Shown: in pieces, positions 5,668-21,024 of the stretch
How the letters are laid out: the number at the start of each line of letters is the position of its first letter
Position numbering within the stretch: the stretch's first letter is position 1
IMG/VR virus record: IMGVR_UViG_3300007276_000309
Span: 1 to 23,800 of that record
Direction: 5' to 3' (one strand)
From: a virus
DNA: 23,800 nt
Translations under genes and position numbers: made by a program
The notes under the pieces: generated by a model
The model's input: the letters and a program-made list of their open reading frames with translations, nothing else
Told to the model about the DNA's origin: nothing
Database searches by the model: none

Positions 5668-7179
5668 ATGGCAATTACAAATGGTGATTCGTTGAACAGC
5701 GTGCCTGCAGCACAAAAGCAGACGTTAGCAACGAACTATTTAGACTTAATGTCTAGTACAGGTTGGGGACAGCAATATGTTCCAGACCTAATGGAAAAAG
5801 AGGCTGAAGTTTTCGGCCCAAGAACTATTTCAGGATTTTTAGCGCAAGTTGGAGCTGAAGAGGCTATGACTGCTGATCAAGTTATTTGGTCAGAGCAAGG
5901 TCGTTTACACTTATCTTATACAGGTAATGTAGCTACTGCTGCTGGTGGTATAAACTACGACTCTAATGGAGCTACTTCTCAGGTCGCTATTGAAAACGAC
6001 ATTGACGGTACTTCAGGATTTACAGCTACTGCTCACGGTGTTAGAGTTAACGATACTATTATTGTTTCTAACTCTGACGGTGTTTTCAAATGCTTAGTAG
6101 TTAAAGTTAATGGTGCTACGTTAGACGTCGCTCCTTATAGCAAAGCTAATTTAACTCAAAAGACTGATGCTGATGCAACAACTATCTTAGTTTATGGTTC
6201 TGAGTATGGAAAAGGTTCTTCTTACTTTGGTAACGTTACTACTACTGCTCAAGCTAGCGCTTCAGCAAGAACTGCTAACGAGCCTGATTTTAAAACGTTC
6301 AAGAACAAGCCTATTATCATGAAAGACTACTACGAAGTATCTGGATCAGATTCTTCTCGTATTGGTTGGGTAGAGGTTTCTACTGAAGGCGGACAAGGCG
6401 GATACTTATGGTATTTAAAAGCTGAGTCTGATACTAGAGCTCGTTTCTCTGACTACGTTGAAATGGCGATGCTAGAAGGTGAATTTGGTGTAGCTGCATC
6501 TCTTGCACATGACGTACCTGCTTTAGGCGGTCACGGTGGAGCTGCTGACACTGTAGGTACTGAAGGTTTATTTGCCGCTATCGAAGAAAGAGGTAACTTA
6601 ACTTCAGGTATTACTGGTGTTAACGCTGCTACTGATTTAGCTGAGTTCGATGCTATTTTAGCTGAGTTCGATAAGCAAGGTGCTATTGAAGAAAACATGA
6701 TGTTTGTTAATCGTTCAACTAGCTTGGCTATTGACGATATGCTAGCTTCTATGAATTCTTACGGTGCTGGCGGTACATCTTACGGTGTATTTGACAACTC
6801 TGAAGATATGGCGTTAAACCTAGGCTTTTCTGGTTTCCGTAGAGGATCTTATGACTTCTATAAGTCTGACTTCCGTTACTTAAACGACAAAGCTACTCGT
6901 GGTGGTATTAATGACGCTGCAGGTTCTGCTGCAATTAGAGGTGTTATTATTCCTGCTGGTTCTTCATCTGTTTATGACCAAACTGTTGGTGCTTCTGTTA
7001 AGCGTCCGTTCTTACACGTTCGTTATAGAGCTTCTCAAACTGATGATCGTAGAATGAAGACTTGGACTACTGGTTCGGTTGGAGCTGCTACATCTGCTTT
7101 AGATGCAATGCAACTACACTTCTTAACTGAAAGATGTTTGATCACTCAAGGTGCGAACAACTTTATGTTGATGAAGTAG
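5668..7179 (+). CDS. Major capsid protein (HK97-fold, inferred)
   Basis: The 503-aa product is placed as the main shell subunit. It follows the scaffold candidate, has the usual length, and opens with an N-arm-like helical segment. A GWGQQYVPDLMEKEAEVFGPRT segment at about residues 32-54 resembles major capsid proteins of marine tailed phages. Around residues 122-155 there is a small beta-rich insert (GVRVNDTIIVSNSDG onwards) that could be an insertion domain on the capsid surface. The C-terminal half has the helix and beta content expected of the P and A domains. Codon use differs from neighbours: by my count 10 of 21 Arg codons are CGT, whereas AGA dominates elsewhere, as expected for the most abundant protein. 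A rho-independent terminator follows 11 nt after the stop. The start, ATGGCA, follows an A-rich leader. No cleavage site is obvious. Confidence 0.85.
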   Translation: MAITNGDSLNSVPAAQKQTLATNYLDLMSSTGWGQQYVPDLMEKEAEVFGPRTISGFLAQVGAEEAMTADQVIWSEQGRLHLSYTGNVATAAGGINYDSNGATSQVAIENDIDGTSGFTATAHGVRVNDTIIVSNSDGVFKCLVVKVNGATLDVAPYSKANLTQKTDADATTILVYGSEYGKGSSYFGNVTTTAQASASARTANEPDFKTFKNKPIIMKDYYEVSGSDSSRIGWVEVSTEGGQGGYLWYLKAESDTRARFSDYVEMAMLEGEFGVAASLAHDVPALGGHGGAADTVGTEGLFAAIEERGNLTSGITGVNAATDLAEFDAILAEFDKQGAIEENMMFVNRSTSLAIDDMLASMNSYGAGGTSYGVFDNSEDMALNLGFSGFRRGSYDFYKSDFRYLNDKATRGGINDAAGSAAIRGVIIPAGSSSVYDQTVGASVKRPFLHVRYRASQTDDRRMKTWTTGSVGAATSALDAMQLHFLTERCLITQGANNFMLMK

Positions 7180-7190
7180 AGTATTTTAAG

Positions 7191-7221
7191 CTACCCTGCC
7201 TTCGGGTGGGGTAGTTTTTTT
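7191..7221 (+). terminator. Rho-independent terminator after major capsid gene
   Basis: CTACCCTGCC (7191-7200), a TTCG tetraloop (7201-7204) and GGTGGGGTAG (7205-7214) form a 10-bp stem with two G-U pairs, closed by C-G around the UUCG loop. It is followed at once by seven T (7215-7221). Flanking AAG/TTT can extend the stem by about three pairs. There is no T-tract on the opposite side, so it acts on + strand transcripts. It lies 11 nt after the capsid stop, so it would cap capsid mRNA and reduce transcription of downstream genes. Confidence 0.88.
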
Positions 7222-7245
7222 ATTAATTTTTTATTATATTATATC

Positions 7246-8073
7246 ATGGCAAAAAAAGAAACAAAAAAGGTTGATGTAGCACCTGAAGTGAAAGCTACAA
7301 ACGAAATGGTTGAGGTTGAAGTGAAAACTAAACCTAAACATCAAAAACCAACTTGGGAGATAAAAGACAGAGTTTATAATTTAAAAGGTAGAAAAAGACC
7401 GCTTTCAAGAACTATAAAGTCTGCTGGAATTTACTACTTTGACGAAGCGAAGGGCTACGAGAGAGAGTTAAAATATTGTCAAAATCAAAAAACTCCGTTT
7501 GTAGATGAAATGATTGGAGATCAAAGATTAGAGCATATAACCTTTAGAAACGGAGCGTTGTTTGTTCCTAAAGAAAAAACTACTCTTCAAAAACTTCTAT
7601 CTTTATACCACCCAGATAAAAACAAGCTTTACGCAGAGTATGAACCTGTAAAAGAAGCTGCTAGTGAAATAGAGGTGCTAGAAATGGAGGCTGACGCAAT
7701 ATTAATGGCTAGACAAATGGACATTGAAATGGCAGAAGCTATTATGAGGGTAGAATTAGGATCTCAAGTTAATACGATGAGTTCTAAAGAACTTAAAAGA
7801 GATTTACTGCTATTTGCTCGTAATAACCCTGCTTTGCTCTTAGAACTAGCTTCTGATGAAAATGTTCAGCTTAGAAACTTTGGTATTAAAGCCGTAGAAG
7901 AAGGTATTATTAAAATATCTAGCGATCAACGTAACTTTTTATGGGGATCAACTGATAGAAAAATAATGACCGTACCGTTTGATGAGCATCCATATACAGC
8001 TTTAGCACATTGGTTTAAAACTGATGAAGGTATGGAGATTTATACGAACATAGAAAAACGTTTAAACGCGTAA
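7246..8073 (+). CDS. Conserved head-associated protein of unknown function
   Basis: I recognise the type, but no function is known to me. The 275-aa product starts with about 35 residues rich in K, E and V, probably disordered. A compact middle part follows (IKDRVYNLKGRKRPLSRTI, then a beta-like stretch to FVPKEK near 125). The C-terminal half is helical, with KELKRDLLLFARNNPALLLELA at about 185-206 and then a conserved-looking FDEHPYTALAHWF segment near the end. Similar proteins sit just downstream of the capsid gene in uncultured marine phages, as I recall. A role as head completion, decoration or inner-head protein is inferred from position only. The gene is bracketed by two UUCG hairpins, so it may have its own transcript. 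Its A/T leader resembles that of the scaffold-like gene. Confidence 0.8.
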   Translation: MAKKETKKVDVAPEVKATNEMVEVEVKTKPKHQKPTWEIKDRVYNLKGRKRPLSRTIKSAGIYYFDEAKGYERELKYCQNQKTPFVDEMIGDQRLEHITFRNGALFVPKEKTTLQKLLSLYHPDKNKLYAEYEPVKEAASEIEVLEMEADAILMARQMDIEMAEAIMRVELGSQVNTMSSKELKRDLLLFARNNPALLLELASDENVQLRNFGIKAVEEGIIKISSDQRNFLWGSTDRKIMTVPFDEHPYTALAHWFKTDEGMEIYTNIEKRLNA

Positions 8074-8135: not shown

Positions 8136-8855
8136 ATGGCAGTAAGTGTAGACACAGTATATCAAACAGTATTGGCGCTAGCCAACAAGGAGCAAGGAGG
8201 ATACATAACTCCTCAAGAATTTAACTTATTTGCTAATCATGCTCAATCTGAAATATTTGAGCAATACTTTTACGATCTTAGTCAATTCAAAAGAGGTAGA
8301 GGTAGTGACGATAATGAATCTGATATGGTTTCTTTACTAGAAGATAAAATAGCTATATTCAGCTCAACTGCAACGCTTGGAAATCAAGATCCAGAAGCAG
8401 GCAACTCAAAGTTTACATTACCTAAGAATTTCTACAGATTAATAGACGTTAGAACCGGCAGTTCTCACAGCAATGTTCAAGTAAACAAACTTTCAAGAAA
8501 AGACTTTTGGGAATACAATCAAGGCCCGCTTACTAAAGGAACTTTAAGTAGACCTAATTGTTACTTTCATGGTCAAGACGGAGTGTTATGGGTGAATCCT
8601 GATGGGATAGAAACAATAGATGCAAACTATATTAGAAAGCCAAAAACTCCTAAGTGGACGTATGTTGTTGTTAATGAAAAAGCTTTATGGAATCCTATGT
8701 CTTCAGACAAGCAAGACTTTGAGCTTCACCCTTCAGAACAACACAATTTAGTTGTCAAGATACTAAAGCTTGCTGGAGTTTCTATAAAAGACTACAACTT
8801 AGCTCAAGCTGCAGGTCAAAACGAAGTTCAAAATATTCAACAACAAAAATCTTAA
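8136..8855 (+). CDS. Neck/head-completion protein (adaptor or ring-like), 239 aa
   Basis: Probable virion neck component. The N-terminal third is helical (TVYQTVLALANKEQGGYITPQEFNLF and the following helix), the pattern of adaptor proteins whose helices pack on the portal. Next comes LPKNFYRLIDVRT (about residues 106-118) leading into a beta part with DGVLWVNPDG, and the end is a helix (HNLVVKILKLAGVSI, about 207-221) with a Q/N-rich tail. The next gene product has the same order of parts: helices, an LPK-aromatic strand, a beta part ending in YI, then C-terminal helices. The two may therefore be stacked ring proteins of related fold. The assignment rests on architecture and position between capsid and nozzle genes. 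A strong hairpin lies in its 5' leader region, and the start ATGGCA has no Shine-Dalgarno. Confidence 0.75.
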   Translation: MAVSVDTVYQTVLALANKEQGGYITPQEFNLFANHAQSEIFEQYFYDLSQFKRGRGSDDNESDMVSLLEDKIAIFSSTATLGNQDPEAGNSKFTLPKNFYRLIDVRTGSSHSNVQVNKLSRKDFWEYNQGPLTKGTLSRPNCYFHGQDGVLWVNPDGIETIDANYIRKPKTPKWTYVVVNEKALWNPMSSDKQDFELHPSEQHNLVVKILKLAGVSIKDYNLAQAAGQNEVQNIQQQKS

Positions 8856-8859
8856 GTAA

Positions 8860-10476
8860 ATGGCTTTAATAAATAAAACTGACTTAAACTACTACACAGG
8901 GAGCGAATTAGGTGATTATCAGTTTGTATCACTAGACGACGTTATATCTCAGTTTATGGCTGTTTACGTAGGTGATGAAAAAATAATAAATAAAGTAAGT
9001 AGATCTGACGTGAGTTTTTGGGCTCAAAGAGCTTTAGCTGAGCTTTCTTTTGACACTTTAAAATCTGTTAAGTCTCAGCAAATTGATCTGCCGCCAAGCT
9101 TAACAATGCCACTTCCTAAAGACTATGTAAATTACACTGAGTTGAGTTTCGTAGACAGCTCTGGAGTGAAGCATCCATTGTATCCAACTAAAGATACTTC
9201 AAACCCGTACCAAATTAGTCAAAATGACGATGGCTCTTATGAGTTTCCTGGAGAAGGTGAGCTAGCTTATACTTTTGATTTTAACGAAGGACAAGCTTCA
9301 ATAAGCGCAGCTAGCAATTGGGTTTTGTCATCTCACGCTGTATATTCAGCTACTTTTGGAGGTAAATTAACGAGTACAACTATAGATTCTGAAACAGATC
9401 CAGATAATCCTAGGCTTAAGTTTAGCATAAAACCTAAAAGATCAGCTGTTACTGTTGGTACAGCTCACGGTTATGCTTTGTATTCATATCAAGAAATAAA
9501 CGTAGACGGACTACAGCTACTTCAATTTAGTGGTAATGCAACTACTACTGCAGCAAGAACAACCTCAATAAGTGTTTCGCAAGCAGCTACTACAGGTATC
9601 ACTGGACAAACAAGTGGAACGTTTGATTTACCTGGAACAACAATAAGACTAGGCTTTAGCACTACTCCGCCTGCGCCTGAGATAACTATGCGAGATTACA
9701 TTTTCAACAATCAACAATACGTAGGTCCCGACGGAACAGTTTGGGAAAGAACTTCAAACGCATCTACAGACTTGTTTGATTTAGGGTATTTAGAGTGGAC
9801 TCAAGGTGAATCTGGAATTAAAAATTATGACGAGCAAGCGGTAGACGTAAGTAACGTAGACGGCTCTGTTTACTTAATAGTTTTGTGTATAGCAGATCAC
9901 ACTGATGTAGATACTAACAAAGGTGGATCTAGCTTTATGGCTGAAGAAGCGTTTATAGATGATATAGTCGTAGAAAATATTGTTACAAAAACATCTTTGT
10001 CAGAAACTAATCCGGGTGAGTCTTCAACCTTTACAAACTACAAGCAAGCAAATACTAGTGAAAAAGTTGTAACCGACGACTATATAGATGATATATATTG
10101 GCCTAACGAAGGTGAAAGATACGGTATAGATCCGGTAAGAGCTCAAGTAAATGGTTCTTTCTACATTGATCAAAGATTAGGTAAAATAAACTTTAGCTCT
10201 AACATTTCTGGAAAAACTGTGATCTTAGACTACATAAGTGATAGTCTTGGAACTGATAAAGAAATGCAAGTGCATAAGTTTGCAGAAGAAGCTTTATACA
10301 AGTGGATAACGTACGGCGTTTTATCTACTAAATCTAATGTTCCTGAGATGATAGTAAGACGCGCAAAAAAAGAAAAGTTTGCAGCTACTAGGCAGGCTAA
10401 GCTAAGATTATCAAACGTTAAGTTAGGTGAGATGACCCAAATATTAAGAGGGAAGTCTAAACAAATAAAACACTAG
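8860..10476 (+). CDS. Head-to-tail adaptor / tail tubular-like protein with inserted beta-sandwich
   Basis: The 538-aa protein is a neck adaptor of a type I know from marine phages. Conserved parts are the N-terminal helices (SRSDVSFWAQRALAELSFDT, about 47-66), MPLPKDYVNYTELSFVDSSG (about 85-104), then after a long interval GERYGIDPVRAQVNG (about 418-432), FYIDQRLGKINFSSNISGKT and a basic helical C terminus ending GKSKQIKH. In relatives, as I remember them, the two halves lie close together. Here residues of about 134-393 intervene, rich in S, T, D and aromatics. This stretch reads like a carbohydrate-binding-type beta-sandwich: it starts AYTFDFNEGQ and ends with the strand FIDDIVVEN (365-373). 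The job is to join portal and nozzle; the insert would project from the neck. The gene ends TAG followed by in-frame TAA, directly before the nozzle ATG. Confidence 0.8.
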   Translation: MALINKTDLNYYTGSELGDYQFVSLDDVISQFMAVYVGDEKIINKVSRSDVSFWAQRALAELSFDTLKSVKSQQIDLPPSLTMPLPKDYVNYTELSFVDSSGVKHPLYPTKDTSNPYQISQNDDGSYEFPGEGELAYTFDFNEGQASISAASNWVLSSHAVYSATFGGKLTSTTIDSETDPDNPRLKFSIKPKRSAVTVGTAHGYALYSYQEINVDGLQLLQFSGNATTTAARTTSISVSQAATTGITGQTSGTFDLPGTTIRLGFSTTPPAPEITMRDYIFNNQQYVGPDGTVWERTSNASTDLFDLGYLEWTQGESGIKNYDEQAVDVSNVDGSVYLIVLCIADHTDVDTNKGGSSFMAEEAFIDDIVVENIVTKTSLSETNPGESSTFTNYKQANTSEKVVTDDYIDDIYWPNEGERYGIDPVRAQVNGSFYIDQRLGKINFSSNISGKTVILDYISDSLGTDKEMQVHKFAEEALYKWITYGVLSTKSNVPEMIVRRAKKEKFAATRQAKLRLSNVKLGEMTQILRGKSKQIKH

Positions 10477-10479
10477 TAA

Positions 10480-13400
10480 ATGGCGGAGATCAAAAACACT
10501 TTTAGTCAAGGTAAAATGAACAAAGACCTTGACGAAAGACTTATACCTAATGGACAATATAGAGACGCTTTAAATGTTGAAATAACTTCTGATGGTGAGT
10601 CTGCAGAAACAGGTAGCGCTGGCACAATATCTAACATAAAAGGTAATGTACCTTTAGAGAACGTTGTACCGAGCGATAAGTGTGTTTGTGTAGGAAGTGT
10701 TGCGGATGAAAAGAATAACAAGCTGTATTGGTTTATTAAGTGCGAAGGATTTCCGCAGTCTGGAGACACAGCGTTTCCTAATAGAGACGCTATAATTGAA
10801 TACGATACTGTATCAAAAGAATCTACATTTCTTATTACTGATCTTCGTAGCAAGTTTACAAATTCAGCTGGAAGCACATTAAAGCCTATATTAAATTTTT
10901 CTGGCAAAAAAATAACCGCAATAAATATAATAGATCAGTATTTAATATGGTCTGATGGAGAAACAGAGCCTAAAAAAATAAATATTGAAAAAGCTAGAAA
11001 AGCAACAATTAAGCAAAATAAAGGCACAGGTGGAAGAGGATCTATAGATCACCACTCTTATCTATACGTTGACGGTGTTAATACTGTTCAATATCTACAA
11101 GAAGAAAATATAACTTTAATAAAGAAAAAGCCTTTAATGGCTCCTAGGTACAGTGTTGTTAGTGCTAAAAACGCTCAGTTTGATCCTAAGTTAAACCCAA
11201 CGCCTTTAAAAGAAGCTATATTTGAAAAAATATTTCCTAGGTTTTGCTTAAGATATAAATACCAAGACGGTGAATACTCTGCGTTTGGCCCTTGGACTAA
11301 TGTAATTTTTAACCCTGAATTTGTTGGTGAATATTCTGTTTTAAATGCTTTTACAGCAAAAGAGCCGTACAACAAAGCTATGGTTAACGCTATAAGAACA
11401 ATAAACTTTTATGGTTTAGTTACTCCAGACATGCCTAAAGATGTTGTGCAAATAGACATTCTTTACAAGCAAGAAAATTCTACAGTAGTACACAATGTGG
11501 GTAGTATTAAAAACACAGACCCAGAGTGGTTTGAAGATGGAAGCTGGTTTAAAGATCAAGGTTTAGCAGACTATGACGACTACAACCCTGCAACTAAAGG
11601 TGTATTTATAGTAGACACCGAAAATATACACGCGGCTCTACCTGAAAATCAATTTTTAAGAGTATGGGATGCTGTTCCAAGAAAAGCACAAGCTCAAGAA
11701 ATAACAGGTAATAGATTAGTTTTTGCTAACTATACCGAAGGCTACGACATGGTAGTTGATAACGCGGATTTTAAGCCAAAGATTTTAGGTGACTTTGAGC
11801 CTAGGCAGATTGATGTTGATCTTATTTTTAGAGGCGAAGGAGCTTTTGGAGCCGCGCTAAACACGTCAAGACCTATTTTAGGAAGATGGACAAGTGAACC
11901 TTTAGCAACGCGTGATGGAGAAAGTGGGGGCATTTACAGTTACGTTTCTGCTCCTGTTGCAGATCCGTCATCGCCGCTAATATACAACTATGTTGGCTAT
12001 AGAGGCGCAGGACTGCCTACTATTAAGTCACAGCGAGATTATCAACTAGGTGTTGTTTTTGGGGATAAGTACGGTAGAGAAACACCTGTGTTTACTTCTG
12101 ATTTAGCTACAATTAAAATTCCTTGGGAAGGCACGTATGGAAAATCAGCTAGTACGTCATTATCTATAGCCGCGGCGCTAGGTAACACTCCTCCTAGCTG
12201 GGCTAGTTATTACAAGTTTTACGTAAAACAATCCGCTGGAGAGTACTACAATCTAGCGATGGATAAAATATATAGACCAGCAACATCTTCTCCAGAATTT
12301 GCAAATAGCTTAAATCACGTTTGGGTTTCTTTTGCATCGTCTGATAGAAACAAAGTAGATGTGGGTGAATACATTACTATTAAAAAAATTGTAAATGAAA
12401 ACGCGTTACAAATTGAAAAAGAAAATAAGTACAAAATACTAGACATTTCTAACGAAATGCCAGAGTCTATCGCCTACGAGTTTTATAATTTAGGCACTAG
12501 ATCTAACGTCAGCGATGCTTTAACAGATGATACTGTTGCTGGTGGAAATCCTATTTTTACGGCAGATCCAGGTGCTAATGAAGACGAAAGAATAGATAGA
12601 ACAACTAATACAATTGAAATTTCAAAACCAAACTGGTTAGCTGGCAATGGAGTTCCACTTACTAAAGAGTCAATAGACGATTACACAGAGAGAAATGGCG
12701 ATTTATATATTTCTTGGAGAAGAACTACAACTTTAAGTAGATCTTTTTCTAAAAGGTACAAGGTGACATCTGTAACTTTTCGAAGTGACAAATACATATT
12801 AAAGCTTGCTGAAACAATATCAGAGCAAGACGCTAAGCTAGCCGCTAATAATTCTGACTTGTCGTCGGCTTCATCAAATTTGGGTGGAACTTCAACGTCT
12901 GACACATTAACTTTTCAAGTAGAAAGAAAAGAAAAGAAAACAAAAGAAGCTTTTGATGGTAGGTTTTTTGTTAAAATATCTGCTGACTATATATTACAAC
13001 AGTATTTGCTTAGCGAATTTAAAGAAGAGTTAACCGACTATTATATAAATGGATCTCAAAAATTATTTTACTTAGCCGACGGCGTAACTACTGGTTTTGA
13101 CGCCACGTCTTCTATAGTAAACTCTGAAAATTCTTCTGAGATACAGTCTTATCAAGATGATAGTGATGTTACATCTCCTAGCGATATACACAGCGGGGGA
13201 TCGCTAACAAACATTCAGTCAGAGTGGCAGGCTTTAATAGACGACGAAGACTTTGGTGTAAGGCTAAGCCCTACTAGCACTAGCTCTGCTGGTAACGGTG
13301 GGTTTTTTATAGATGCTATGTATTTTGCCGCGGTTAACAGTGATGATGTTGGTTCTTACGCAAAGTACGCTGGTCAAGGTTGGGCTGGTAATCCAAACGT

Positions 13401-16400
13401 TGAGTATCCTGAAATTGAATGGGGTAGAATAATAGATTATAGAACGAACGACAATGATCTTGCTGGCTCAGATTGGCTAACATCTATTCCACCAACTACT
13501 TACGGTAGAGATTATAATATAGCAGCTAGAAGAGCTAGATATGGCTGGAGAAAAGCTGGCGTTGACGAAACAAACGTTGAAAATTGGATAGAGTCATCTA
13601 GTGCTTCAGGTTATGGCGCAAGTGCTTACAGAGGCAGATGGAGAAATTGGAATCATTCAAACTTTTCTACATGGCAAGTTTTACAAGGCACTTCAGAAAC
13701 AATAGAATCAGACAGAGAGTCTGAAGTAAACGGGTTTGAAGGTGTTTTACAACAAGCTTCTCCGGTACATTATTCTTTACCTTCTGACGGTGGTTATAGA
13801 AACTTTTTATCTAATATATATGGAAAACAGCCTAACGGCAGAACTATATCTAAAAATGTTTATAAATCTACAGTTAACAACGAAACTCCTTCTTACTTAC
13901 ACTTATCTTATTTAGGACCAGGGTACTCAGGCTCGCTTTTTGATAAAACCAAAGTTCCTTCAGACGTTAGTTTGCATGGCGAAAAAGCTTTAGGTCGTTA
14001 TTTAGGTGGAATATGGGGAGGCGGAGCTTTCACAAGTCAAGATGGAACAAACTTTGGACTTTCTAACATAAGGTTTGTTGAGATGGAAGGAACTAATTGG
14101 GACGATAGAATAGCGTACTCTGACAATGGTTCAATATTACCAGACGGCTATGACGAACAAGCTGAGATTAACATGCCTAGCGATAGTACTAGATCGCAAG
14201 CTCCAAAAGCAGGTGCGTCATGGTCTTTTGGTTACGATCAAAGTAAAGCTACAGCGCATAACAATCAATGGAAACCAGGCGGTGATCGCCCTACAAATCC
14301 GCCTGTGTTTGACTTTGCAACTCAAGATTTGCAGCAAGGTGCTCAATTTAGATTTAAAAACGACGATAGTCAAGAGGTGTATACTGTTCTTGAAAAATCT
14401 GAACTTCACGTATATAATCATACTCCTTGGAAAGCAAGAAAAGTATGGAATGGTAACGAATACGTGTGGGGTAACGACAGTGTAGAAGAAGCTGTAGCTG
14501 CTTGGGCAAACACCGCTGACGTTGATGGTCAACCTGATAACAACGGTCAAGAGTTTACAGATATGTTAGACAGGCTAGAAGCGTTTGGCGATAGATCTAA
14601 CAGAAGAACTACCTACGTTTTAGCTTTAGATAAACCTGTACAAACATCTTCGTACAACCCTGTGTTAGGCGCGGACACCACCAATAGTCAAGTAGTTCCT
14701 GATACAACCGCTTTTACTGATATAGAGTTTTTAAGAGAAAACCCTATGGTTTTAACTGGTGAAGTTACTAAAGATCCAGCTATATGGGAGACAGAGCCTA
14801 AGAATAATGATGAACTTGATGTTTATTACGAGGCTTCCAACGCAATACCTACTAAACTCAACAAAGATAATCTTGATTTATTCGCGCCTCAAGGAACTAG
14901 AATAGAGTTTCCTAACATGGACAATAGCGTTATAAAGCACGATTACGACGTTTACCTGCGTAGATGGAATGGTCCAATGTCAAGTTATAACGATGAAGTA
15001 ATAAGGCTAGAGGTAAGAGCTTTAGGTGGTGGTGACACAGGCTTTAAGTGGGAGCAAAACGATGTTAATATAGACTATACAAATCAAGAAATTAGATTTT
15101 ATAGGCAAGACGGTAGTTACACTACGGCTACAACAGCTAATGTTCAAATAGAACAATTTTACGTAGACACAGATAATATGACTGATGGCTCTGGTGACTA
15201 CTGGAAGAGTAAAAATACAGCTGCGTATATATTCTTAAAAAACACTATAGATCCTACAAAACAAGTAGGATTAAACTGGTTTAACGCGTTTACTTTTTCA
15301 GACGGAGTTGAATCTAATAGAATTAGAGACGACTTCAATGAAATGACAATAACTAATGGCGCTAGAGTTTCTACTACTTTAGACGAGCCTTATAGAGAAG
15401 AGGTTAAAGCTAACGGATTAATATATTCTGGCATATACAACTCTAACTCTAAAACAAACAACTTAAACGAGTTTATTGCAGCTGAAAAAATAACAAAAGA
15501 CTTAAATCCTACGTACGGCAGCATACAAAAGCTGTTTTCAAGAAATTCAGACTTAGTTGCTTTTTGTGAAGATAGAGTTGTTAAAATACTAGCCAATAAA
15601 GACGCTGTATTTAATGCTGATGGTAATCCTCAATTAGTAGCTTCAAATAGAGTTCTTGGTCAAGCCACGCCTTTTGCCGGTGACTTTGGTATATCTAAAA
15701 ACCCAGAATCGTTTGCTAAAGATTCTTATAGAGCTTATTTTGCTGACAAACAAAGAGGTGCTGTGCTAAGACTTTCTATGGACGGATTAACACCTATATC
15801 TGAAGCAGGTATGAGCGATTGGTTTAGAGACGAGCTTACTGCCACAGGCATAAACATAATAGGCACGTTTGATGAACACGCTAAAGAATATAATGTAACT
15901 GTTAAAGAGTTAATAGACCCTAACAGAATACAAAACAACACATTTGATTACGGATCTCAAGTTAACACTGTAAATATAGTTAATCCAGAGTTATGTACCA
16001 ATTCTGATTTATCCGGTGGAGCAGAATACACGCCTGTAGATCTTGTTAATGACATATACTATGCTGGACCAACTGCTGATTCTAGTTTAGGTGTAAGCCT
16101 TGGTTTTGACGTGTATAGCAAAGTTCCTATAAGAAACAGATCTTTAGGCTATAAATCTACAGTTAGAAACTGGCCGGCTATAGCAGAGGGATCTATAAGA
16201 TCTTACGTCGCCGCAGTACCTGCTATCTTAGCGGCTAACGCGGAGTACGATACTTACGATCTGCAAAACTATAATATGTCGGGTATTGATACAGTTTACA
16301 AGCTGTTTCATTGGTCGTTTAGAAATACTGATACTAATCCTTTTGACAACCCTACGCCTAATGGGTCAAGATCTACTCTTTCAACTAGCTCAACGTCTAA

Positions 16401-19400
16401 AACAGAGGTAACTTCAGGTTATAATTTAGCAAACAGTTATGGCGCTAGATACATAGGATCTAACGACTCTACTGAGCCAGGACATGATGATGATGGCGTG
16501 AGTGGCGATACTAGCTCTTACACAGATTTACGTTCATACGGCAATAGCACTCAACAGGATTACGATCTTAGAAGTATATTTTACGACTCAGCGGATGCTA
16601 CTAGCACGACTCCATCAACTAGCGCTGACACAATATACACTCAAGAAGGAAATAACTCTGGTATTATATTTGGTAACTGCTACTTTGGTCACGAGCCTAC
16701 TAATGGCGGTGGTTTAGCGGCAGATAGTAAAGAGATGTACATAGAAGTTCCTGGATACCACGAAGAAGATTACGGTAATAGAGTTGCAAGTGATGTGAAG
16801 AACTGGGGCACTGATCCAGACAATCATTTACAAGAAAATTTTGGTACGATGTACAATAACTCAGCGTTTAATAACGAAGAGTTTCATCTAAGTTATAGCA
16901 TATCTAATTCACACGGCGGCGCAACTTATGATCATAAATGGTTTGTTGAAATATGGGCTGACGGTCAGCTTATAGATGACTCGTATTTAGTTGACACTGA
17001 CGCTGAAACAAATACTTTGGCTACAAGTAGTTATAACCCGGGCTTTGTTACTAGTAATACTACTATAACTCCTGCCGCGGGAGCCGTTGGTACGCAAGCT
17101 TCGCCTTCAGGTTACACAGCTCAATTGCAGTTTAAGATACAAGATCCTAACACGTCTGCAGACTCTAGCCATAAAGTGTTTAATCAAATTAAAGTTAGAA
17201 TTGGTATTACAAACTCAGATCAAACAGCAAACTATCCTTCAGATCCAGTTTACGCTATACTACACCAAGTTAAGCTTACTAAAACAAAAAGACTAACACA
17301 TCCTAAAATAACGGAGTATGCAGGTGAGCCAGAAGTTTTAGCTGTTCCAAGTTTAGATAGACCGGCTTGGTCAGAGGTTATTCACGAGCTTCACTATGAA
17401 AATGTATGGAATATTACTGCTGGAACTGGAAATAGATTCTACAAGGCTGAACAAACTTTAGGTGTAGCAAATCCAGGCGGGTGGGTGACTAGTACCGATA
17501 ACAATGGAAACACAGTACAGTGGTATGATTTTGTTGAAGGTAACGATGTTACCGTAAACCCAATTTACGACGATGCTGTTGAGGGCGAAAACTCTTACAC
17601 AGGGGCTGCGCCAGCAGAGTATATAACTACTCCTAACGGTAGTGACTTACCGTCGTTTAATCAATACACTGAGGCTACTAGCGAAGCCGAAGATCCTAAC
17701 CAAATAACGGTGGATACTAGAGGAATACTTATTAATAACAACGGATCTGAAGACGGCAGCTTTTATTTTGCGCAACCGCTAAACAATGACTCAAAATACG
17801 TTGTTGGTAATTGGTATTGTGTTGATGTTTTTCTTGACTCTAGTTATGATAACGTAGCTTTAAATAATCTTTTAATACCTGGCGTGCTAGGTGCAAGTGA
17901 CAGCTTAGATAATGCTTATCAGACAGATCACACGCAAGACAACCCTGATTATCCACCTTATCATTTTGGAAAAGTTGGTGGATCAAGTACCGCGGGCTAC
18001 AGTAAGTCTATAGTGTTAATGCCTGTTATAAACAACGAATGGCCTTTAGGCAATGGAAACGAAGTTTATAGAGCTATATTCCAATATAACGCTACTGAAT
18101 TTGTTCAAGAAGATCAAGGTCAAAACTTTGTGCTGCAAGGCTGGAACGCTAACTGTTTAATTAGAACTATATCTCTGTATGATATAACAGAGCAAGCAAC
18201 TATGGGCAAGCCTACAGGCTGGAACGTTCCTCAAGACGCTTGGGTTAGTGAGCACGCTATGCACGAATTTATAACAGAGCAGACTAATGATAATCTTGAG
18301 CCTGAATGTTACTTTAGACATAACATGCTTTGTTGGAACACTGAAAGAGGTAGTCATGTATATTGGAATAATTACCACTACAACGGTAACGGTCCGCTAG
18401 ACGAAACAGAAGAGTCTTACAATGGATATTTACTTAACTTTACAATAGAAAAAAATCCAGATTTTGTTGAAGAGGAGTTTAATGGCAAGCTTAGAGTTAG
18501 AGTTACTAATAGATGGAATGATCAAACTAATTCTTTAGACGGCGCTTATATTAGAGATATAGATACACCTGGCGACTACTCTATATTAATGAACTTCAAC
18601 TCTATAGATCCAACTATAATTTCTGCGCCTGAAGGATCTGAAGTAAACGCCGTAGCGTTTGCTAATCAAAGTGATTTTGCTCAAGTTGAAAATCATAGAA
18701 GCAAGATAATAGTATTCCCAGAAAACGGTGGTTGCACAGGTGCTTTAAGCAGCTTGTCGCTAATTGACGCTACGCAATACTACGAGGGTGGTGGCGTAGA
18801 TTCCTGGGCTATAACTGGTTACGATAGAACAGCGGCAAACTATATTTCTTGGAATGAAGAAAATTTAAACATTGTGTTTGAAGAAGCGCCAGTTGAACAA
18901 GAAAACTTAACAACTAATATTAGCGAACCTGTTCAAATAGAGCAAAGAGTTAGTAGTATACAGTCAAATTCTAGCGTAAAGTTTGGCTTGACGCTAAGCA
19001 GTTTAGAAGGAAAAATAAGCGCTTATTATTACAATAGTTTTAACAAAGGTTTTAGCGTTACTTACGACTCAAACGGAAGTTATTTAAATATATTTACGTT
19101 AAATGAAAACAGGCCTGCAGGCGCGCTAATAAATACTTTAGTTATAAAAGCCGCACAACAAAACACTTCTTGTGTTGTAGACGATGTAGTTTTAAGTAGA
19201 AGTGCTAACGCTGGATTTAAACCAAAAACTATAAGTTACAGTGAAGATGTTAAAGGTTGGACTAGCTTAAAGTCTTTTTATCCAGAAAGTGGTGTTAGTG
19301 TAGCTAGACAATACTACACGATTAACAATGGTGAATTATGGCAACATCATGCTAATGACGTTAGAAACAACTTTTATGGTCAGCAGTACGACAGTAATAT

Positions 19401-19779
19401 AACTTTAGTTATGAATGCTGATCCTTCTACTATTAAAAACTTTAGAGCTGTTAGTTATGAAGGCAGTCAAGCTAAAATTAACGAAGCTAGTCAACTATTT
19501 TTAGGTGTAAACGAATTAGGAGAAAGTATATACGCTAGCTCAGCAGACAACTACAACTTTTCTTCTAAGCTTGGTTGGTTTGCAGAAAATATTCACACAG
19601 ACATTCAACATGGATCAATAAAAGAGTTTGTAAAAAAAGAAGGCAAATGGTTTAACAACATAAAAGGAAGAAACACAGGTGATTCTGTAACTATGGAGGA
19701 AGTAGGGCAAATAAGCTTTCAAGGCTTAGGTTTTGTTGCTTCTGTTGTAACTAGCGAAGACACTGCGGCTGCAGAATAA
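10480..19779 (+). CDS. Giant tail nozzle / stabilisation-type virion protein with multiple domain insertions
   Basis: At 3,099 aa this gene fills 39% of the window. Core pieces match the tail nozzle/stabilisation (gp10- or gp12-like beta-propeller) proteins of marine phages. They are QGKMNKDLDERLIPNGQYR (9-27); a region around 616-674 with DRNKVDVGEYI and KYKILDISNE; FDGRFFVKI near 823; AIWETEPKNNDELDVYYEAS (1433-1452); a long highly typical block 1620-1820 (SGIYNS, KLFSRNSDLVAF, LANKD, ADKQRGAVLRLSMDGLTPIS, EYNVTV); and the C-terminal part from 2919 (WTSLKSFYPESGVS, FYGQQYDS, then EGKWFNNIKG near the end). In ordinary members the EYNVTV and WTSLKSF elements are close; here about 1,100 residues separate them. 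That insert holds several beta-sandwich-like units. A second extra region lies within 866-1300. No signal peptide, membrane helix or catalytic motif is visible. It probably forms the tail tip and displays the receptor-binding domains. Confidence 0.85.
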   Translation: MAEIKNTFSQGKMNKDLDERLIPNGQYRDALNVEITSDGESAETGSAGTISNIKGNVPLENVVPSDKCVCVGSVADEKNNKLYWFIKCEGFPQSGDTAFPNRDAIIEYDTVSKESTFLITDLRSKFTNSAGSTLKPILNFSGKKITAINIIDQYLIWSDGETEPKKINIEKARKATIKQNKGTGGRGSIDHHSYLYVDGVNTVQYLQEENITLIKKKPLMAPRYSVVSAKNAQFDPKLNPTPLKEAIFEKIFPRFCLRYKYQDGEYSAFGPWTNVIFNPEFVGEYSVLNAFTAKEPYNKAMVNAIRTINFYGLVTPDMPKDVVQIDILYKQENSTVVHNVGSIKNTDPEWFEDGSWFKDQGLADYDDYNPATKGVFIVDTENIHAALPENQFLRVWDAVPRKAQAQEITGNRLVFANYTEGYDMVVDNADFKPKILGDFEPRQIDVDLIFRGEGAFGAALNTSRPILGRWTSEPLATRDGESGGIYSYVSAPVADPSSPLIYNYVGYRGAGLPTIKSQRDYQLGVVFGDKYGRETPVFTSDLATIKIPWEGTYGKSASTSLSIAAALGNTPPSWASYYKFYVKQSAGEYYNLAMDKIYRPATSSPEFANSLNHVWVSFASSDRNKVDVGEYITIKKIVNENALQIEKENKYKILDISNEMPESIAYEFYNLGTRSNVSDALTDDTVAGGNPIFTADPGANEDERIDRTTNTIEISKPNWLAGNGVPLTKESIDDYTERNGDLYISWRRTTTLSRSFSKRYKVTSVTFRSDKYILKLAETISEQDAKLAANNSDLSSASSNLGGTSTSDTLTFQVERKEKKTKEAFDGRFFVKISADYILQQYLLSEFKEELTDYYINGSQKLFYLADGVTTGFDATSSIVNSENSSEIQSYQDDSDVTSPSDIHSGGSLTNIQSEWQALIDDEDFGVRLSPTSTSSAGNGGFFIDAMYFAAVNSDDVGSYAKYAGQGWAGNPNVEYPEIEWGRIIDYRTNDNDLAGSDWLTSIPPTTYGRDYNIAARRARYGWRKAGVDETNVENWIESSSASGYGASAYRGRWRNWNHSNFSTWQVLQGTSETIESDRESEVNGFEGVLQQASPVHYSLPSDGGYRNFLSNIYGKQPNGRTISKNVYKSTVNNETPSYLHLSYLGPGYSGSLFDKTKVPSDVSLHGEKALGRYLGGIWGGGAFTSQDGTNFGLSNIRFVEMEGTNWDDRIAYSDNGSILPDGYDEQAEINMPSDSTRSQAPKAGASWSFGYDQSKATAHNNQWKPGGDRPTNPPVFDFATQDLQQGAQFRFKNDDSQEVYTVLEKSELHVYNHTPWKARKVWNGNEYVWGNDSVEEAVAAWANTADVDGQPDNNGQEFTDMLDRLEAFGDRSNRRTTYVLALDKPVQTSSYNPVLGADTTNSQVVPDTTAFTDIEFLRENPMVLTGEVTKDPAIWETEPKNNDELDVYYEASNAIPTKLNKDNLDLFAPQGTRIEFPNMDNSVIKHDYDVYLRRWNGPMSSYNDEVIRLEVRALGGGDTGFKWEQNDVNIDYTNQEIRFYRQDGSYTTATTANVQIEQFYVDTDNMTDGSGDYWKSKNTAAYIFLKNTIDPTKQVGLNWFNAFTFSDGVESNRIRDDFNEMTITNGARVSTTLDEPYREEVKANGLIYSGIYNSNSKTNNLNEFIAAEKITKDLNPTYGSIQKLFSRNSDLVAFCEDRVVKILANKDAVFNADGNPQLVASNRVLGQATPFAGDFGISKNPESFAKDSYRAYFADKQRGAVLRLSMDGLTPISEAGMSDWFRDELTATGINIIGTFDEHAKEYNVTVKELIDPNRIQNNTFDYGSQVNTVNIVNPELCTNSDLSGGAEYTPVDLVNDIYYAGPTADSSLGVSLGFDVYSKVPIRNRSLGYKSTVRNWPAIAEGSIRSYVAAVPAILAANAEYDTYDLQNYNMSGIDTVYKLFHWSFRNTDTNPFDNPTPNGSRSTLSTSSTSKTEVTSGYNLANSYGARYIGSNDSTEPGHDDDGVSGDTSSYTDLRSYGNSTQQDYDLRSIFYDSADATSTTPSTSADTIYTQEGNNSGIIFGNCYFGHEPTNGGGLAADSKEMYIEVPGYHEEDYGNRVASDVKNWGTDPDNHLQENFGTMYNNSAFNNEEFHLSYSISNSHGGATYDHKWFVEIWADGQLIDDSYLVDTDAETNTLATSSYNPGFVTSNTTITPAAGAVGTQASPSGYTAQLQFKIQDPNTSADSSHKVFNQIKVRIGITNSDQTANYPSDPVYAILHQVKLTKTKRLTHPKITEYAGEPEVLAVPSLDRPAWSEVIHELHYENVWNITAGTGNRFYKAEQTLGVANPGGWVTSTDNNGNTVQWYDFVEGNDVTVNPIYDDAVEGENSYTGAAPAEYITTPNGSDLPSFNQYTEATSEAEDPNQITVDTRGILINNNGSEDGSFYFAQPLNNDSKYVVGNWYCVDVFLDSSYDNVALNNLLIPGVLGASDSLDNAYQTDHTQDNPDYPPYHFGKVGGSSTAGYSKSIVLMPVINNEWPLGNGNEVYRAIFQYNATEFVQEDQGQNFVLQGWNANCLIRTISLYDITEQATMGKPTGWNVPQDAWVSEHAMHEFITEQTNDNLEPECYFRHNMLCWNTERGSHVYWNNYHYNGNGPLDETEESYNGYLLNFTIEKNPDFVEEEFNGKLRVRVTNRWNDQTNSLDGAYIRDIDTPGDYSILMNFNSIDPTIISAPEGSEVNAVAFANQSDFAQVENHRSKIIVFPENGGCTGALSSLSLIDATQYYEGGGVDSWAITGYDRTAANYISWNEENLNIVFEEAPVEQENLTTNISEPVQIEQRVSSIQSNSSVKFGLTLSSLEGKISAYYYNSFNKGFSVTYDSNGSYLNIFTLNENRPAGALINTLVIKAAQQNTSCVVDDVVLSRSANAGFKPKTISYSEDVKGWTSLKSFYPESGVSVARQYYTINNGELWQHHANDVRNNFYGQQYDSNITLVMNADPSTIKNFRAVSYEGSQAKINEASQLFLGVNELGESIYASSADNYNFSSKLGWFAENIHTDIQHGSIKEFVKKEGKWFNNIKGRNTGDSVTMEEVGQISFQGLGFVASVVTSEDTAAAE

Positions 19780-19794
19780 TTTAAAAACAATTAA

Positions 19795-21024
19795 ATGGCT
19801 ATAATAAACGAAATACAAATAAACACTGAAGATATACCAGCAGGAGGTGCAACTAGGTATTTTAGCATAACTGGAGAAGAAGGAGCTCAGTTTATGCTTC
19901 AAGCCGTCACATCTGAAGGTGTTTTTTACAATTTTGTTACAAAAAAATTTACAGCAAGCGAAGGTTTTAATTCAAACCACAATAAAGTTGTAACCATGAG
20001 TGGTCAGTTCAACTCATCTATTCATTTTCCAAGTGGACTTACTACAACTTATAGCGTTATTTTATTAGCAAATGGTTTTGACACAACTATTAATAATGAC
20101 AGTAGAAAAGTAAGTGTTAAAAAAATTACACAAAATAGTCAAACAACGCTTACATTTGCTTTTGCTACAGATAATTCAAGTAAATACAGCTCTAGCCCAG
20201 CCGCAGCAAACGTTACATCTAGTGGAACACCAGGAGTGGCTACAAGTGTAGTTGTAAGTAATACTAGCACAGTAACAAACGCTGACAACGATACTCATGG
20301 TAGTGGGTTTGCTGTTTTAAAGTGGAATAAAGACACAGTACAGTATAATGGTGACAACATGTGGTATTATCAAAAAACAGCTACAGTAAACGGAGCTAGC
20401 TCTACCGACGTGTTAACATTAGATAGCGTCGATGAAATTGCAATAGGGTCTCAAATAACTTATATTACAGGCACAACCGCCCCTGGAGCAACAACAATTG
20501 TGAAGAGCATAGACACTACTGCAAAAACGCTAACATTGTCTAGAGCTCAAGCTTTTAGCGACGGTGCTACGGTAACTATAAGATCTTATGGCGCGTCTTT
20601 AATAAATAGTGTTGCTGGCGCTAGCGTTAGCTTTCCCGCAGTTGTAGCTATTAAAACTAGTAGTACAAACAAAAGGTACACTACCAACGGAACCACCACT
20701 ACAAGTAACACTATAAACTTGAACGGATCGCGAGGATTAGGTAAAGGCGCTATAATTTCAGGTACAGGAATAAATAGATCAAACTCTGGTGATGTTATAC
20801 ACTCTGTTAGTCTTAGCGCTAGCGGTGGAAGTATAGTTGTAGGAGATAATGACGCTGGTACATCTGGAGATCTTCAAACTTTACCGGACAAGCTTACAAT
20901 TGATACAGACTCTATTATCACTATAGATGTTCATTTTAAAACGGAAGTAAATAGTTATCCATCAACCAACAAAACGATAAACTTAGATTTAGATAAAATA
21001 TTAACTCCATTAGCAACATCATGA
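19795..21024 (+). CDS. Beta-rich virion structural protein
   Basis: The 409-aa product belongs to a beta-rich family I recall from marine phage structural modules. The N-terminal domain (about 1-140) has GGATRYFSITGEEGAQFML, FYNFVTKKF and an FPSGLTTTYSVILLA strand pattern, suggesting a beta-sandwich. After a Ser/Thr/Ala-rich linker (about 141-165) come two module-like stretches. The first (about 203-265) reads LTLDSVDEIAIGSQITYITGT, then VKSIDTTAKTLTLS and DGATVTIRSYG. The second (about 300-370) repeats the same order in degenerate form (TINLNGSRGLGKGAIISGTGI, then SVSLSASGGSIVVG). Such modules usually form small beta-barrels on virion surfaces. Role at the tail or as an appendage is inferred. 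The gene's TGA overlaps the next ATG (ATGA), so the two are probably translationally coupled. No enzyme motif is seen. Confidence 0.78.
   Translation: MAIINEIQINTEDIPAGGATRYFSITGEEGAQFMLQAVTSEGVFYNFVTKKFTASEGFNSNHNKVVTMSGQFNSSIHFPSGLTTTYSVILLANGFDTTINNDSRKVSVKKITQNSQTTLTFAFATDNSSKYSSSPAAANVTSSGTPGVATSVVVSNTSTVTNADNDTHGSGFAVLKWNKDTVQYNGDNMWYYQKTATVNGASSTDVLTLDSVDEIAIGSQITYITGTTAPGATTIVKSIDTTAKTLTLSRAQAFSDGATVTIRSYGASLINSVAGASVSFPAVVAIKTSSTNKRYTTNGTTTTSNTINLNGSRGLGKGAIISGTGINRSNSGDVIHSVSLSASGGSIVVGDNDAGTSGDLQTLPDKLTIDTDSIITIDVHFKTEVNSYPSTNKTINLDLDKILTPLATS

Follow-up and report, generated by a model that had tools for sequence, protein, structure and literature searches.

A ring-protein loop that looks like an exchange site for unrelated modules, one of them CBM-like, in an uncultured short-tailed phage and its relatives

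Several tail adaptors are described with accessory domains. In crAss001, ring protein 1 (R1) lies at the portal end of the tail and, together with R2, carries the fibre hubs (PMC10172136). SU10 has an optional adaptor domain that docks fibres on its outside (PMC9509320), and the adaptor of R4C, a marine phage, bears a peripheral Ig-like attachment domain (PMC10276861). The ring protein described here resembles the SU10 and T7 adaptors in having an optional domain, present in some phages and absent from others, but theirs is a fibre dock, for which the excerpted text of PMC9509320 reports no CBM-like fold. It resembles the R4C adaptor in being head-proximal with an accessory beta domain, but the R4C domain is N-terminal and Ig-like rather than a loop insertion, and the excerpted text of PMC10276861 reports no exchange of it. 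Both adaptors with accessory domains and phages with mosaic beta domains are already known. A literature search over titles and the starts of abstracts found neither ring or adaptor proteins with exchangeable CBM-like inserts nor a single head-proximal ring-protein loop that exchanges several unrelated modules.

The window, by which we mean the whole stretch of DNA analysed, covers 23.8 kb of a metagenomic virus record. Its source is an uncultured short-tailed phage, kin of marine flavobacterial phages. The genes run terminase, portal, ORF 4479, capsid-type protein, ORF 7246, ring-type protein, R1-like ring and muzzle, and the corresponding genes of phi38:1 (a Cellulophaga phage) and elemoF (a Flavobacterium phage) are annotated, with the order unchanged. 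The features discussed below are as follows.

5668-7179: capsid-type virion protein
8136-8855, + strand: second ring-type protein, R3/R4-like, 239 aa, no insert (BLASTP to crAss001 gp34; weak SU10_adaptor match)
8860-10476, + strand: tail-barrel ring (adaptor) protein, R1-like, module-bearing, 538 aa (PHROG 13977 and core fold match to gp43)
8860-9246, + strand: the N-terminal half of its core, residues 1-129 (every one of the 88 homologues aligns here; DSSP of the model)
9247-10008, + strand: exchangeable module of group F1, predicted CBM-like jelly-roll beta-sandwich, residues ~130-383 (homologue alignment, clustering and fold match)
10009-10149, + strand: core linker, residues 384-430, GESSTFTNYK...DPVRAQV (homologue alignments; kept where there is no insert)
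10150-10473, + strand: C-terminal core half, residues 431-538 (homologue alignments; DSSP of the model)
10480-19779, + strand: muzzle protein of nozzle type, 3099 aa (passes the cut-off of Pfam crAss_MUZ_C with E 1.8e-8)
19795-21024: gene after the muzzle

By DSSP of the window model, the N-terminal core half consists of helices followed by the first strands of a beta domain, and the C-terminal half begins with strands and continues with conserved helices. The ring-type protein at 8136-8855 matched crAss001 gp34 (ring 4/5) with a BLASTP E value of 3e-4 in one single comparison, and Pfam SU10_adaptor at E 5e-4, short of that model's cut-off. Two further features of the neighbourhood were observed. 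The muzzle protein (3099 aa) is far longer than those of phi38:1 (1324) and elemoF (1493), and has probably gained large insertions too. The stretch 5668-8073, with the capsid-type protein and ORF 7246, has a mosaic look: its products are 73% and 86% identical to those of locus L018 and 66% and 71% to those of L002, yet in the portal and both ring genes the window is closer to L002.

The 538-residue product of 8860-10476 matched PHROG 13977, a 273-position profile annotated 'head and packaging / virion structural protein', in two separate stretches (E 5.6e-45). The homologues in isolated phages, phi38:1 gp96 (283 aa) and elemoF gp23 (286 aa), likewise align on either side of a gap; these two and PHROG 13977 are direct homologues of the core that share the gene order but, unlike the window protein, have no insert. 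Homologues were collected from two IMG/VR scans and two cultured phages (93 loci; 94 proteins with the window's), and removal of partial copies (L008, L081 and L090) and duplicates (L003, L006 and L047) left 88 distinct full-length proteins. The distance between the positions equivalent to Q121 and N431 was 51-75 aa in 31 of them, which lack the insert and include phi38:1 and elemo, and 204-515 aa in the other 57, two size classes without overlap. Because the second scan contributed the 80 best of the window protein's 590 relatives, 57/88 is biased towards the window's kin and should not be read as a frequency in the population. The reading frame is open through all 57 inserts. Among cultured phages (85 records), an insert-free query was matched in one piece by 60 of the 60 matches listed and was covered to at least 80% in 84 records.

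An earlier, sequence-only reading of this DNA had proposed a domain inserted into the neck adaptor, and the alignment bears this out: the segment is missing from 31 homologues and, where present, always enters at the same point. The bounds then suggested (residues 134-393, 9259-10038) were nearly right. The insert proper spans residues ~130-383 (9247-10008), and the last ten or so residues of the earlier interval, including ESSTFTNYK (387-395), belong to a core linker (ESSTFTNYK...RYGIDP) that insert-free homologues also possess. Richness in S, T and D, mentioned in that reading, does not distinguish the insert, since these residues make up 29.9% of the module, 27.9% of the N-terminal core and 20.6% of the C-terminal core.

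In three relatives the arrangement looks different. The ring protein of L049 (6992-9226) has 745 residues with a 515-residue stretch at the insertion site, perhaps two modules. L007 carries three tandem ring-protein genes on one contig (3808-5346, 5359-6987 and 6995-7885), encoding 512, 542 and at least 297 residues (the third ends at the contig edge), each with an F1-type insert; these possibly form several stacked rings. In L059, the ring-type gene preceding the R1-like ring is long (5986-6994, a 336-codon open frame), and its residues 208-255 include a weak F2-like stretch (E 8e-4), so modules may enter the adjacent ring as well.

The identity of the core was addressed by structure prediction. 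The ring part of the window model matched 7qog_B (Z 10.6) and 7qoi_FS (Z 10.7) with rmsd values of 8.7-9.9 (8.7 for 7qoi_FS), as expected if the module sets the core halves apart. In an AlphaFold2 model of L038, a homologue with an F2 insert (mean pLDDT 74, pTM 0.44), the core matched 7qog_B with Z 10.5 over 183 aligned residues at 3.6 A; other tail chains followed, from KHP30 (Z 10.2), B2 (Z 9.1), N4 (Z 8.8) and DEV (Z 8.5). Chain 7qog_B is crAss001 ring protein 1, gp43, by sequence; 7qoi_FS is assigned to R1 because R1 and R2 are the only ring proteins in 7qoi, and FS has 229 residues as against 225 for R2. Ring chains of R3 or R4 type were absent among the structural matches listed for the window model, which is no evidence against them. 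Since hhalign detected no sequence similarity between the insert-free alignment and gp43 (probability 0.2%, a very distant pair), fold and gene order are the basis for the R1 identity: the R1-like gene lies directly upstream of the muzzle gene, and crAss001 gp43 and gp44 are ordered alike. By predicted fold and gene order, then, the 8860-10476 product is a short-tailed-phage tail-barrel ring (adaptor) protein of the crAss001 R1 type, in agreement with the portal-proximal position first proposed for it. It differs from gp43, which has 236 residues and no such module, and whose sequence similarity to the window core is undetectable.

The module itself is predicted to be a jelly-roll beta-sandwich. 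The window model has a mean pLDDT of 65 and a pTM of 0.47, and from about residue 170 most 10-residue blocks of the module reach pLDDT 68-94. For residues ~131-375, the strongest solved matches included a CBM61 (2xom; Z 10.6, 133 of 145 residues aligned, 2.6 A), CBM16 (Z 10.4) and CBM4-2 (Z 10.1); the jelly-roll is shared with these three families over most of the module, at rmsd 2.5-3.5 A and 10-14% identity. Further matches were a domain of the phage K2-2 tailspike (Z 10.0), an alginate-binding module (Z 9.7) and a porphyran-binding module (Z 9.4), together with Cry protein domains and Eph receptor ligand-binding domains. The best Foldseek E values for the window model were 3e-4 to 5e-4 (top 3.4e-4). 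The search of predicted viral structures with the module gave tail fibres, tailspikes and unnamed proteins among the matches listed, and nothing decisive.

Profile searches returned less. Among 31 proteins of the F1 group, none matched a Pfam CBM model at E 0.1, and the F1 profile had no match among PDB sequences at E 10. Big2, I-set and FN3 were absent from the 4 Pfam families listed for the 31 F1 proteins and from the 7 listed for a 19-protein set of F2-bearing and insert-free homologues. Moreover, tblastn of the window module and one F2 module against a phage collection gave no match at E 1, and PHROGs searched with 10 modules gave nothing beyond chance level (E >= 0.02). The carbohydrate-binding-type domain first suggested therefore holds as a beta-sandwich prediction with many CBMs among its best solved matches, but not as a member of a Pfam CBM family; we call the module CBM-like because its fold matches CBMs and the Pfam CBM profiles do not.

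More importantly, the insertion site holds different things in different relatives. The 57 inserts fall into four groups: F1 (32, the window's included), F2 (16), F3 (6) and F4 (3). Membership of L056 in F2 was assigned by HMM (E 1.2e-4), and F4 was grouped from single-sequence HMMs, with L078 joining weakly (E 0.006-0.012). Between groups, hhalign probabilities did not exceed 3.2%, as against 100% for one half of F1 with the other. F1 and F3 could be remote relatives, their 3.2% match falling on 22 N-terminal columns. In F2, a ~75-residue beta-barrel is duplicated internally (halves matching at E 9e-8), and phage tail proteins were among the matches of its repeats. In L038 (7001-8317, residues 128-288) the repeat matched the phage Bridgette virion chain 8eci_1, which presumably has a virion-decoration role, with Z 9.4 and 24% identity over 75 residues, and proteins of the phages Mystique (Z 8.3), Chi (Z 6.4) and T5 (Z 5.9), the last two weakly; the F2 barrel and the Bridgette chain possibly share a virion-decoration fold.

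On a tree built from the core only, accounting for module state takes 19 changes (shuffled mean 44, minimum 4), or 13 when two long outgroups are removed. Well-supported sister cores differ in state: L048 has F2 and L020 F1, with C-terminal cores 96% identical and modules from different groups, and L087 and L083 have no insert beside the F4 modules of L078 and L086, respectively. HMMs of F1-F4 run against the fetched loci matched two further ring genes of L007 and, among non-ring ORFs, gave only the one weak F2 match in L059 (E 8e-4), so no donor gene was found there. Because related cores carry unrelated domains or none at this point, this one loop of the ring protein looks like an exchange site, and the CBM-like domain in the window is one state of a wider system that swaps several unrelated modules.

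Alleles of a single module group have also been reassorted. Compared with L002, the window has identities of 93% (upstream gene), 84% (N-terminal core), 96% (C-terminal core) and 30% (module); compared with L017, the values are 45%, 78%, 82% and 39%. Among the portal-to-muzzle segments with scores against both relatives, only the module is nearer to L017. In the module tree the window joins L017 (support 99/95), and L016 joins L001, L002 and L009 (100/98). The module data reject a grouping of the window with L001, L002 and L009 (AU p 0.0016) and the core data reject one with L017 (AU p 7.8e-6), both p values being not blind, because the groups were chosen after the identities had been seen. 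As judged from these comparisons, the window's module groups with the more distant L017, and its core and flanking genes with L001, L002 and L009. Across nine pairs, module dN ranged from 0.20 to 0.86 and exceeded that of both core parts in eight; the exception was L034/L036 (module 0.21, C-terminal core 0.26). Module dN/dS was below 1 in all nine pairs, and thus gives no sign of positive selection as such.

We propose that the protein forms the ring nearest the portal in a tail barrel like that of crAss001, that one loop in its beta domain accepts insertions, and that phages of this group swap whole surface modules there by recombination. By analogy with crAss001 and SU10 the module would face outwards, and by analogy with crAss001 twelve copies would project around the barrel just below the capsid. 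There they would most likely act as auxiliary adhesins that tether the virion to surface glycans, either on the host or in its surroundings, ahead of engagement by the tail tip; rapid divergence and swapping of the modules would be favoured where surface polysaccharides change. The variety of modules, their swapping and the CBM-like fold lead us to favour adhesion, and we regard the whole proposal, a loop that swaps modules and in the window bears a CBM-like auxiliary adhesin on an R1-like ring, as evenly balanced between right and wrong. Glycan binding, the candidate function suggested by the modelled fold, falls slightly short of that balance: jelly-rolls bind proteins too, as in Eph receptors, and the want of a Pfam CBM match or a PDB sequence match to F1 also counts against it.

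The main rival to adhesion casts the module as a platform on which tail fibres or hub proteins dock, with swapping allowing the ring to accept different appendages; the beta domain of T7-like adaptors is then taken as a fibre-dock domain. It has precedents: the adaptors of SU10, T7 and KP32 have a dock domain for long tail fibres with radially protruding loops, and P22 and Sf6, without long fibres, are also without the domain (PMC9509320), while R1 and R2 of crAss001 form the interface for fibre hubs (PMC10172136). The gene after the muzzle (19795-21024) bears on this reading. By tblastn, the window protein matched 27 of 74 records, and in 58 scored records a relative occurred in 20/21 with F1 as against 7/37 others. 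An iterated profile recovered relatives that tblastn had missed (for example in L074, L075, L059 and L084), so the seeming tie to F1 was largely lost sensitivity. With the profile, relatives were found in every module-bearing record examined (F1 20/20, a count that is not blind, as 14 of the 20 regions were fetched where tblastn had matched; F2 2/2; F3 1/1; F4 1/1, weak, E 3e-4) and, near that place, in 4 of 14 insert-free records examined. This presence pattern, which docking would welcome, is confounded by relatedness: the sign test had only four independent pairs, with a median p of 0.25. Furthermore, the alleles follow the backbone and not the module, with identities of 86% in the L002 record, 65% in L009 and 38% in L017, and relatives that have no insert, phi38:1 for one, are viable. 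We consider docking rather unlikely. Independently of this question, the 19795-21024 family changes fast, and genes of other sizes stand at that place in insert-free records.

Alternatively, the module could be a structural or near-neutral accessory (a stabiliser, a spacer or a filler for a symmetry mismatch) that spreads by recombination and has no ligand. The peripheral Ig-like attachment domain of the R4C adaptor is tied to local stability and not to adsorption, a preference its authors base on its nearness to the head (PMC10276861); a module dN/dS below 1 and the existence of insert-free phages would also suit such a role. Nevertheless, a fixed contact would not predict unrelated modules at one site or allele swaps between close relatives, and none of the 57 inserts has decayed, which makes this alternative less probable than docking. 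A chimeric contig, conceivable for a fragment of a metagenomic record, is contradicted by in-frame inserts at the same point in 57 of 88 homologues from many separate records and is extremely improbable.

Returning to adhesion, a bolder version, possible though doubtful, would make the portal-proximal ring a modular display platform: a recombination cassette site presenting twelve copies of interchangeable adhesins below the capsid, as a second adsorption device besides the tail tip. If so, the adhesins would comprise CBM-like jelly-rolls, duplicated virion-type barrels and others, and tandem rings such as those of L007 would stack several differently decorated rings on one tail.

Fibres, spikes and tail tips are where variety in receptor binding is usually looked for. 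In the region compared here, the part exchanged most strongly sits in a conserved head-proximal ring protein, a position at which a few adaptors are known to have accessory or fibre-dock domains. Since natural swaps have put different modules on the same ring, their function can be tested directly. Should they be adhesins, the relatives of marine flavobacterial and crAss-like phages would possess a second contact device.
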